Of a stretch of 41,504 bases of DNA, positions 6,543-12,553 are shown one piece after another. This stretch comes from Deltaproteobacteria bacterium (GTDB lineage Bacteria; Desulfobacterota; RBG-13-43-22), in assembly GCA_016219225.1 (NCBI GenBank), contig JACRBX010000160.1:1-41504 (forward strand). Reading direction: 5' to 3'. The notes under the pieces were generated by a model. That model saw only the letters and a list, made by a program, of their open reading frames with translations. It did not search any database and was not told the origin of the DNA. The position numbers and the translations under genes are program-made. The number at the start of each line of letters is the position of its first letter. Positions within the stretch are counted from its first letter, which is position 1.

Positions 6543-8276
6543 ATGGCTAAACAAATTGTTATTATCGGTGCCGTGGCTTTGGGGCCAAAGGTAGCCTGCC
6601 GGGCCCATCGGATGGATCCCACAGCCCGGGTGATACTCATAGAACAAAACCAGTATCTTTCTTACGGGGGCTGCGGCATCCCCTTTTTTATTTCAGGAGA
6701 CATCAGCGACATCCAGGCCCTCATGTCCACCTCTTTTCACATGGTTCGTGATGAACAATTCTTCAGGGACGCCAAAGGGGTCGAGGTCCGCAGCCAAACC
6801 CGGGCCTTATCGATCAACCCTTTGCAGCAATCGGTCCGGATTCAAAATCGCCTGACTGGTATTGAAGAAGATATCCCCTACGATAACCTGGTCCTGGCTA
6901 CAGGGGCCATTCCGAACAGGCCGGACATACCGGGAATAACCCTGCAAGGGGTTACAACCATCTCTAATCCCGCTGAAGCTTTAGTGGTTAAGGAATCCCT
7001 CAGTCGGGGGAAGGTCGGCCATTGCGTTATTATCGGGGCCGGCCCCATTGGACTGGAGATGGCCCAGGCCGTATCCGACCTCTGGGGAGTGGAAACTACT
7101 GTCCTGGAGATAAAGGATCAAATTCTTCCCGGTCTCCTGGACCTTGATTTGGCCCGGATGGTCTCGAAGGACCTTGAGGATCATGGGGTTAACCTTCTGC
7201 TGGGAGAAAAGGTGGTTCGCCTGGAGGGAGATGATCAAGGGGAGGTTAAAAAGGTGATTACCCAAAACCGGGAACTTCCGGCCGACCTGGTAATCCTGGC
7301 CGTGGGGGTCCGGCCCAATACGGCCCTGGCTCATCAGGCCGGCCTGCTCATTGGCCCTTCGGGGGGAATCGCCGTTAATGAATTCCTCCAGACTTCGGAT
7401 CATCAGATTTATGCCGGCGGGGATTGTATCGAGGTCCCCCACCTGATAACCCGGCAGCCCTGCTTCTATCCCTCCGGCTCCCTGGCCAATCGGCAGGGGC
7501 GGGTCATCGGGACCAATATAGCCGGTGGGCGGGAAACCTTCCCCGGGGTTATCGGGAGTTTTGCCGTCAAAGTATTCGACTTCTCGGCCGGCAGGTGCGG
7601 TCTGACGACTGCAGCCGCCAGGCAGGCGGGATTTGATGCCGAAGAGGCCCTGGTCATCCAGGCCGACCGGGCCCATTTTTATCCGGGCCAGGAATTGATG
7701 GCCCTGAAGCTGGTTGCCGATCGGAAAAGCCGGAGGGTCCTGGGTTTGTCCGGGGTGGGGCGGAACGGGGACGCCCTGATGGCCCGTCTCAATGCCGTAG
7801 CCGGGGCCTTGCCTTATCAAATGACCATCGAAGACCTGGCCAACCTGGAGATACCCTATTCCCCGCCTTTTGCCGCTGCTATGGATATCCTGAATGCCGT
7901 AGCCAATACCCTTAAGAACACCCTGGAAGGGAAAAACCGCCCTTTACCGGTGGAAAATTTTCCGGATCTCCTGGCAGGACGACAAGAAAAGGATGTCCTG
8001 TTTCTGGATGTGCGGGGACCGCGAAATGCCCGGCCATATATTGAAAAGCTTGGCCCCCATTGGATTAATATCCCGCAGGAAACCCTCTCCCGGCGCCTTC
8101 ATGAAATACCCAAGGCCGAAAATCTGGTGCTGATTTGCAACTCGGGGGTGCGCTCCTATGAAGCCCAGATCCTCCTGGACCAGGAAGGGATCAAAAACAC
8201 CCGGAATCTGGCCGGAGGTCTGGCGGCCATCAAATGGGCCGGACTCAATCCCCTTGAAGAAGAGGAAGAAAAATAA
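6543..8276 (+). CDS. CoA-disulfide reductase-like flavoprotein with C-terminal rhodanese domain
   Basis: This 577-residue protein is a pyridine nucleotide-disulfide oxidoreductase. It has an FAD site (VIIGAVALG, residues 6-14), a single redox cysteine in SYGGCGIPF (Cys44), an NAD(P) site (VIIGAGPIGLEM), a dimerisation domain, and a rhodanese domain at about 465-577 with the active-site loop CNSGVRS (Cys532). This architecture is known from CoA-disulfide, polysulfide and persulfide reductases, which reduce CoA persulfide or polysulfide with NAD(P)H. Sulfur metabolism is therefore the likely role, but the substrate cannot be read from sequence. A GGAGG site lies 7 nt before the ATG. The stop overlaps the next start as TAATG. 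Confidence 0.88.
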   Translation: MAKQIVIIGAVALGPKVACRAHRMDPTARVILIEQNQYLSYGGCGIPFFISGDISDIQALMSTSFHMVRDEQFFRDAKGVEVRSQTRALSINPLQQSVRIQNRLTGIEEDIPYDNLVLATGAIPNRPDIPGITLQGVTTISNPAEALVVKESLSRGKVGHCVIIGAGPIGLEMAQAVSDLWGVETTVLEIKDQILPGLLDLDLARMVSKDLEDHGVNLLLGEKVVRLEGDDQGEVKKVITQNRELPADLVILAVGVRPNTALAHQAGLLIGPSGGIAVNEFLQTSDHQIYAGGDCIEVPHLITRQPCFYPSGSLANRQGRVIGTNIAGGRETFPGVIGSFAVKVFDFSAGRCGLTTAAARQAGFDAEEALVIQADRAHFYPGQELMALKLVADRKSRRVLGLSGVGRNGDALMARLNAVAGALPYQMTIEDLANLEIPYSPPFAAAMDILNAVANTLKNTLEGKNRPLPVENFPDLLAGRQEKDVLFLDVRGPRNARPYIEKLGPHWINIPQETLSRRLHEIPKAENLVLICNSGVRSYEAQILLDQEGIKNTRNLAGGLAAIKWAGLNPLEEEEEK

Positions 8277-10339: not shown

Positions 10340-10837
10340 TTATTCCCCCTGCAATATCTTCAGCTCCTCCTCCCCCACCACTTCCAGAAGCACCTCGCCC
10401 AAGACCTTGGCTGTTTTCCCGACAAATCGGGTACATTCATCCCGCCGTCCGTCTATTCTGCGGGCTTTAACATCCTCCGGATCATACCAGTCGCATCGGG
10501 AAATAGTCCGGCAACTGGTATCCCCATAAGTTTCCTCGGCTATTTTTTTTAACCGGTCATAAAGCATTTTTATGGTCGGGGTCAACCGGGCATCTTCCAT
10601 TTCATCCTTGTTTGCAGCGGCAAAGAGACAACCGATGACCTGCACGGCCCCGGCCAGGGCCCCACAAAAATCACCCCGGTAACAGCCTCCGGTCAACCCG
10701 GCCATGGCCCGCATCGCCACATCCCTTTCTTCTTCTCCAATCATATCCAGGCCCACGGCCAGGACGGCCTGGGCTCAATATAATTCATTGGCAAACAAAA
10801 CCATGGCCTTTTCAGACATGCTTTCAGGGGTCACCAT
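10340..10837 (-). CDS. C-GCAxxG-C-C family selenoprotein (in-frame UGA)
   Basis: Read from ATG 10835-10837, which follows AGGAG by 7 nt, the frame runs 20 codons, meets TGA at 10775-10777, and continues to TAA at 10340. The text around the TGA is FANELY-(UGA)-AQAVLAVGLDM. The family normally reads YNCAQAV there, so UGA replaces the first conserved cysteine and most likely encodes selenocysteine. Other family cysteines follow in GGCYRGDFCGALAGAVQVIG and in SCRTISRC. The product is 165 residues, a small protein presumed to be redox- or metal-active with no proven function. A hairpin of SECIS type follows the UGA. Starting after the UGA would lose the conserved N-terminus. Confidence 0.85.
10746..10764 (-). 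promoter_or_regulatory. Candidate bacterial SECIS hairpin
   Basis: Eleven nt downstream of the UGA, the mRNA sequence UCCUGGCCGUGGGCCUGGA can fold into seven pairs with one U-U mismatch and a GUG apical loop. The loop begins 18 nt after the UGA. Bacterial SECIS elements, from memory, need a short stem with a G near the start of the apical loop 16-37 nt after UGA, and this fits. An alternative perfect 7-bp stem (CCAGGCC/GGCCUGG) with a 12-nt loop is also possible. Confidence 0.6.
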
Positions 10838-10880
10838 AAATAATCTCCTAATAATTCGATGTTCGATATTCGTATTAAGC

Positions 10881-11015: not shown

Positions 11016-12164
11016 CTAAATATACTGATTAACCAGTTCTTCCAAAAAAGGTTCAATGCCTTCGGGATGGGTGGTTAGCACTTCCTCAATGGCCTTTTCG
11101 ATCTTCCGTTTCAAAACCAGGTCTTTCATGTCCCGGACCGACCGGTAGGCCCCGCCGCGGCGCCCGAAACGATAGATCAAACGTTCTTCTGCCGAAAGAT
11201 GCAAATAGGCATCCAATCCTGCCAGCATCCTCCCTTTGTCCTGCGGAAGGGTGCCCGAAATATCTTCCAGCAGGTTCATAATGTGATCGGATGTGATGGT
11301 GCTGGTTATCCCCTCCAAATGGTCGATCATCAGTCTGATCTCCTCAACCATTTCATCATCGGTCAAGGGTTGAAAGGTTCCTTCAGCTACTAATTGATAA
11401 AGGGGGATTCTTTCGGGAACCCTTAAGGAACGTATCCGGATATAATCGGGATTAATGGCATTCAAGACCCTGGCCGTTTCCAGAGCATGTTCCTCACTGA
11501 GGGCCTTCCCTCCCAGACCGGGCATCCAGTATTCAGAAAGAGAAATACCCGCTTCTTTGCATTTTTTTCCGGCCTCGATCTGTTCAGCCGCTGTAACCCC
11601 TTTTTTCATCCATTGCAAAATAGCATCCGAGCCGCTTTCCAACCCGATATGGATGCGGTCCAGACCGGCCTTTCTTATCCCGGTCAACTCTTCGACCGTT
11701 TTCCGGCTGACGGTCCTGGCCCGGGCATAAGAAGTGATCCTGGAGATCTGGGGGATCTCCTTCCGTAAAAAGGTCAGGACCTCGATCAATTCTTCGGCCG
11801 GCAGGACCAGATTATTGGCGTCCTGGAGAAAAACCGTAAATTCCTGGTAATACATCCAGGCCGCCACATTTCGATAGGCATGGGAATAATTCGGTTGATG
11901 AAACACCTGGGTGATAACGCTGTCATCAACCTTTCCGTTGCCACCCAACCGGAAGGAAAGGGCCTTTAACTCCTCCATGATTCTGGTGATGGTTCGGATA
12001 TCTTCCTTGATTTCTTCAACACTACGCCGGGAAAACCGGGTCCCCTTGTAAACCGGACAAAAAAGGCATTGATTCCAGGAACAATTCCTTGTTATCCGTA
12101 TCAATAAACTCCGGGCCTCGCTCGGTGGTCGGATGGGGCCCTGCTCAAAATCCAATTTCTCCAT
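11016..12164 (-). CDS. Radical SAM protein (CX4CX2C type), function unknown
   Basis: This is a 382-residue radical SAM enzyme whose iron-sulfur motif is CSWNQCLFC, at residues 28-36 from the chosen ATG. The spacing CX4CX2C differs from the common CX3CX2C. Barrel features follow: a SAM-binding region with IHIGLESGSDAILQWMKKGV and a strand with EYWMPGLGG. No B12-binding or SPASM domain is evident. The reaction cannot be named. The ATG at 12162-12164 has GGAG 7 nt upstream; an adjacent TTG at 12167 is a less likely start. The gene lies 178 nt upstream of the selenoprotein gene on the same strand. Confidence 0.85.
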   Translation of the reverse strand: MEKLDFEQGPIRPPSEARSLLIRITRNCSWNQCLFCPVYKGTRFSRRSVEEIKEDIRTITRIMEELKALSFRLGGNGKVDDSVITQVFHQPNYSHAYRNVAAWMYYQEFTVFLQDANNLVLPAEELIEVLTFLRKEIPQISRITSYARARTVSRKTVEELTGIRKAGLDRIHIGLESGSDAILQWMKKGVTAAEQIEAGKKCKEAGISLSEYWMPGLGGKALSEEHALETARVLNAINPDYIRIRSLRVPERIPLYQLVAEGTFQPLTDDEMVEEIRLMIDHLEGITSTITSDHIMNLLEDISGTLPQDKGRMLAGLDAYLHLSAEERLIYRFGRRGGAYRSVRDMKDLVLKRKIEKAIEEVLTTHPEGIEPFLEELVNQYI

Positions 12165-12553
12165 CAAATTACTCCAGATACAAATTTAACCCTCAGGGCT
12201 ACTATGTGCCAGAAGCAATGGGTAAACGATATTAAGGTCTTCTCTTCACCCATAGCCTATTGCCTATTGCCCATAGCCAATTTAAGATTATTTATCCTTG
12301 CAGCTTGCTCTTGAAACTTGAAACTTTTTAAATCGCTATCGTATATTAACCATTCCAAAGTCTTTTGACAATCCCCCTTTTTCGAATTACAATTTCATGG
12401 AAATGACTTTTACCGGACCCTGACCCCCGACCCCTGACCCCGTTTTTCATACTTGCAACTTGTATCTTGAAACAGGCAACCTTTTTCATTTAAGTTTTTC
12501 AAACTTCCTGCCGATAAGAGAATACGGTCGGAGAAACATCTCAAGCGCTCAAG
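12165..12553. other. Divergent intergenic region with degenerate repeats
   Basis: No gene is seen in this region between the radical SAM gene and the DHH-CBS gene. It holds CATAGCCTATTGCCTATTGC-type repeats near 12250-12280, CTTGAAACTTGAAAC near 12310, CCTGACCCCCGACCCCTGAC near 12419-12440, another CTTGCAACTTGTATCTTG near 12453, and one good promoter toward the plus strand. Confidence 0.7.
12365..12393 (+). promoter_or_regulatory. Candidate sigma-70 promoter for the DHH-CBS gene
   Basis: A perfect TTGACA (12365-12370) is followed after 17 nt by TACAAT (12388-12393), 160 nt before the DHH-CBS ATG. No competing gene lies between. Confidence 0.6.

Follow-up and report, generated by a model that had tools for sequence, protein, structure and literature searches.

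Locus and reading frame

The window, that is, the whole stretch of 41,504 nucleotides analysed here from a Deltaproteobacteria bacterium (contig JACRBX010000160.1), carries on its minus strand a very probable selenoprotein gene (10340..10837) of 165 codons plus a TAA, which encodes a member of the Pfam family PF09719 (C_GCAxxG_C_C) with predicted selenocysteine (Sec) at residue 21. As read from the sequence, the frame on the minus strand (10837-10340) opens with an ATG at 10837-10835 and closes with a TAA at 10342-10340, and its sole interruption is one TGA at codon 21 (10775..10777, minus strand), which alignments and orthologues place at the column of the first conserved family Cys and which is separated from the TAA by 144 codons. 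An AGGAG ribosome-binding site (10845..10849, minus strand) precedes the ATG with a 7-nt spacer. The preliminary description of this DNA had proposed this AGGAG-preceded ATG and a frame crossing the TGA and continuing for 144 codons, and all of its coordinates and codon counts were confirmed. It had also anticipated that an automatic caller would start at the GTG at 10756; mechanical ORF calling gave exactly this 138-aa ORF (10340..10756, minus strand), with loss of the N-terminus and of Sec21. The GTG chosen in this way forms the loop of a SECIS-like hairpin discussed below, so that the start picked by standard ORF calling is the SECIS loop itself and the gene is truncated thereby, as standard annotation would probably do.

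Upstream, and on the same strand, lies a gene for a radical-SAM protein (11016..12167, minus strand), which keeps its place in two related genomes, G002 (73% identical) and G001 (76% identical), with a further gene apparently lying between the radical-SAM gene and the selenoprotein gene in G001. A different neighbour occupies this position at the related locus L038, and in G004 the contig ends before it. A functional link of the radical-SAM protein to the selenoprotein is possible. The genetic setting had been put forward as part of the novelty of the gene, a claim which can be upheld only modestly given the conservation of the radical-SAM neighbour in related genomes. Elsewhere in the window, the plus strand encodes a CoA-disulfide-reductase-like flavoprotein that carries a fused rhodanese domain (6543-8276), and G004 has a similar gene close to its copy of the selenoprotein gene (L057, 1270-2997).

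Family assignment and predicted structure

The 165-residue read-through protein matches PF09719 with 65.8 bits over residues 20-148 (gathering cut-off 27), whereas the truncated ORF starting at the GTG scores 53.4 bits and misses the first family columns. Among the NCBI models, the best match is NF045669 (DVU_1555 family) with 68 bits, yet this is below its curated cut-off of 103; TIGR01909 (C-GCAxxG-C-C family (seleno)protein) scores 39.3 bits against a curated cut-off of 47.4, which makes the protein a relative outside the cut-off of that model, and NF045501 (HUGP/GUXX-star fusion selenoprotein) scores 29 bits against 325. The protein shows the cysteine pattern of PF09719, with Sec21 replacing the first cysteine and Cys58, Cys109 and Cys135 aligning with family cysteines. 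The motif that the family name gives as GCAxxG reads CGAxxG in the present protein (CGALAG, containing Cys58). Two additional cysteines, Cys52 and Cys115, are common to all five window-type orthologues. The scores of the orthologue group stay under the NCBI naming cut-offs, and a radical-SAM gene is a frequent neighbour of its members.

Structure prediction from four sequences gave an all-helical model of moderate confidence (mean pLDDT 75.3, pTM 0.78), with pLDDT ranging from 49.7 to 75.3 over five models. The predicted model places both Sec21 and Cys58 where helices begin, which would be expected to promote a reactive selenolate or thiolate. In the PDB, no relative was found by sequence search and no significant match by fold search of the model. 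The cysteine pattern suggests a thiol/selenol redox role.

Selenoproteins of PF09719 have been catalogued as form 1 and form 2, with credit to Zhang & Gladyshev 2007 and 2008 (PMC9312934, PMC13188914), form 2 being exemplified by WP_012158890.1 (PMC13188914) and form 1 by MGD8741185.1, and the NCBI name of TIGR01909 itself includes '(seleno)protein'. The prior statement that seleno-forms of this family had already been named is thus borne out by both sources. The window protein belongs to the same family as the catalogued forms 1 and 2 and shares with them the occurrence of Sec forms; it differs in that its group scores under the cut-offs of TIGR01909 and NF045669 and has the extra conserved Cys52 and Cys115. 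Sec forms of PF09719 are already catalogued and are common in the phylum, and the window gene is a well-supported further member rather than a new phenomenon.

Conservation of the TGA and selection on both sides

A relative with an in-frame TGA was found in all five genomes of the order examined. Full-length orthologues of the window gene are 85% (G004/L057, also L037), 76% (G002/L059), 75% (L038) and 73% (G001/L055) identical, and each of these four, from separate assemblies, has a single TGA at codon 21 and keeps the ATG start. Judged on these alignments, the presence of the TGA in five of five orthologous sequences, the window included, is far beyond chance. A broader sample of the phylum, comprising 395 genomes, yielded no further close relatives, the next sequences being ~40% identical. 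Comparison of the orthologues gave a pooled pN of 0.27 against a pS of 0.70 for codons 2-20, before the TGA, and a pN of 0.13 against a pS of 0.64 for codons 22-160, after it; since pN is well under pS on both sides, both parts are evidently translated.

The same genome encodes a paralogue (G000:C55, L003 1447-1923) which has the TGA in the same column and the same GGCC-GUG-GGCC hairpin core but is only 35% identical to the window protein and lacks Cys52 and Cys115. Orthologues of this paralogue in G004 and G001 also have the TGA at that column. A divergent PF09719 member from the same genus (G003:C23, L032/L111), which shares 24% identity with the window protein, likewise has a TGA at the column.

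Interchange of cysteine and selenocysteine

The UGA had been described as occupying the position of the first conserved cysteine, and the homologues agree: across 42 aligned family rows, this column holds Cys in 27, Sec in 14 and a gap in one. The same alignment shows Cys58 and Cys109 in every row that covers them, one frame-broken row excepted. Among TGA-bearing members, which were chosen on purpose for their TGA, the TGA falls at the Sec21 column with the single exception of L094, whose TGA lies elsewhere in the protein. A less biased search gave, for the best 29 distant matches, 15 with TGT or TGC at the column, 13 with TGA and one (L137) with an alignment shifted by one residue and a TGA adjoining the column. 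In a tree of 65 rows, whose composition is biased because TGA-bearing rows were selected, parsimony requires at least seven Cys/Sec changes, two of which are forced by well-supported branches. The orthologue group of the window gene forms one clade (support 99), which joins the paralogue group in an all-Sec branch of 16 rows (support 93); the make-up of that branch is partly an artefact of choosing TGA-bearing rows, and nearby Cys forms exist. The family was found in 180 of the 297 genomes of a phylum sample, many with one TGA. Taken at the level of codons, Sec and Cys swap at this single column across the phylum, sometimes in neighbouring tandem copies.

Several such tandem arrangements were recorded. 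L132 (G055:C5) and L136 (G320:C37) are PF09719 pairs in which one copy has Cys and the other TGA at the same column, and a further pair (G195:C7, 107084-108060) has one member without a stop and one with a single TGA; tandem copies of this kind may be natural Cys/Sec pairs. Both copies of the tandem pair at L134 (G281:C1) have TGA at the Sec column. Two other PF09719 matches, L116 (G223:C15) and L117 (G220:C13), contain an in-frame TAG instead of a TGA, away from the Sec column, which could be due to pyrrolysine, error or decay.

A SECIS-like hairpin downstream of the UGA

The sequence 3' of the UGA reads GCCCAGGCCG UCC U GGCC GUG GGCC U GGA and forms a SECIS-like hairpin (10745..10765, minus strand) with an outer 4-bp stem, a U-U mismatch, a 4-bp upper stem and the loop GUG (10756-10754). 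It folds at -11.6 kcal/mol, a stability equalled by 6 of 200 dinucleotide shuffles. Published bSECIS constraints comprise a loop of 3-9 nt, an upper stem of 4-16 bp, a G in the first two loop positions, a distance of 16-37 nt from the UGA and an MFE of at most -7.5 kcal/mol (PMC13188914); the present hairpin agrees with them in its 3-nt GUG loop, 4-bp upper stem, spacing of 18 nt between UGA and loop, and folding energy, which bears out the original observation of a GUG-loop hairpin at a SECIS-like distance. Across orthologues and paralogues, an upper-stem pair changes from G-C to G-U twice and to A-U once (in L055, where Ala is replaced by Thr). Covariation alone is weak support, because 173 of 500 shuffles reach the same level and only one change is compensatory. 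A scan of the window with Rfam at gathering thresholds gave no match.

Sec and Cys members were compared over the same stretch by reshuffling synonymous codons within each gene, which yields a protein-preserving z. The mean z was -2.11 in Sec members (n=36) versus -0.08 in Cys members (n=29), and the p-values of the rank tests, which ignore kinship, were 1.7e-6 (energy) and 6e-9 (z). Much stronger hairpins at this distance mark the Sec members of the family as compared with the Cys members. The z of the window member itself is -1.9, with 3% of shuffles equally stable. The stem sequences differ among Sec subgroups, and the distance from the UGA is about equal.

Folded in isolation, the longer 45-nt stretch downstream of the UGA favours a different structure (-17.2 kcal/mol), in which the bases immediately following the UGA take part. 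This alternative, with pairing by nt 4-12 downstream of the UGA, was rejected as the SECIS element: the paralogues do not preserve two of its pairs. Bases so near the UGA would sit inside the ribosome during UGA decoding, which would also disfavour such a fold.

Selenocysteine machinery

A search for selA, selB, selC and selD had been suggested as a check of the selenoprotein assignment. The genome, a fragmented assembly of 353 contigs, encodes selA (628 bits), selB (390 bits) and selD (394 bits), whereas selC, the gene for tRNA-Sec, was recovered as its 3' half only. The selD gene (L060, G000:C203) is itself predicted to encode a selenoprotein, with a TGA in AGUASKL at the canonical site. The partial tRNA-Sec gene extends from the anticodon to the CCA and lies at the very start of contig C145 (L023/L061, 144-224); on its 5' side is unrelated sequence whose open frame enters the tRNA. 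A pattern search was used for tRNA-Sec because the Rfam model ranked other tRNAs above the partial gene, and the missing 5' half was not found across the assembly. Intact and nearly identical tRNA-Sec genes are present in three relatives (G001, G002 and G003), and the partial gene possibly reflects a gap in the assembly or the insertion of an element into selC.

Decoding of the UGA and alternative explanations

It is considered almost certain that the gene makes a 165-residue PF09719 protein, with a putative thiol/selenol redox role, in which the UGA at codon 21 is decoded as Sec through SelB and the GUG hairpin. According to the proposed mechanism, SelB carrying Sec-tRNA would bind this hairpin, with its GUG loop 18 nt 3' of the UGA, and the UGA would be read as Sec. 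In the resulting product, which is probably all-helical, Sec21 would take the place of the first conserved cysteine and act as the nucleophile, with Cys58 of the CGAxxG motif, Cys109 and Cys135 as its putative partners. The TGA-bearing relatives, the Cys homologues and the presence of selA, selB and selD support the selenoprotein interpretation made in the preliminary description, and none of the three outcomes listed there as refuting was seen. Sec insertion as such, the redox chemistry and the physiological role are inferred.

Since the TGA is one base away from TGC or TGT and the assembly is highly fragmented, the TGA could in principle be an error of sequencing or assembly, or a Cys codon that mutated to a stop in a decaying pseudogene. 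This explanation is refuted by the conservation of the TGA in four orthologues from independent genomes, and it is also at odds with the strong purifying selection on both sides of the TGA and with the paralogue bearing a TGA at the same column, so that practically no weight can be given to it. Translation from the GTG at 10756, yielding a 138-aa form without Sec and leaving the upstream part untranslated, has in its favour an open frame and a GTG that is conserved in the orthologues. Conservation of this GTG is, however, explained without initiation because it is the hairpin loop, and the purifying selection on the 20 codons before the TGA, the ATG present in every orthologue and the absence of the first family column from the truncated protein make such a start very unlikely.

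The frame being open on both sides of the UGA would also suit its reading as tryptophan, or a non-specific read-through, without selenium. Yet homologues without a TGA have Cys rather than Trp at this column, hairpins at this distance are characteristic of the Sec members, and the genome has the selA, selB and selD set complete, with selD using a TGA at its own canonical site; a selenium-free reading is accordingly given hardly any credence. Decoding of the UGA as Sec is therefore preferred.

Implications for the PF09719 family

A further proposal is that the window group constitutes a distinct, uncatalogued Sec-dependent subfamily of PF09719, defined by a six-residue set (Sec21, Cys52, Cys58, Cys109, Cys115 and Cys135) and partnering the neighbouring radical-SAM enzyme. 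This proposal is speculative and on balance rather unlikely; if true, the subfamily could, for instance, donate electrons to the radical-SAM enzyme or carry metal or selenium for it. For the family as a whole, the swaps between Sec and Cys at one column throughout the phylum would make PF09719 well suited as a natural experiment on the contribution of selenium to a protein.
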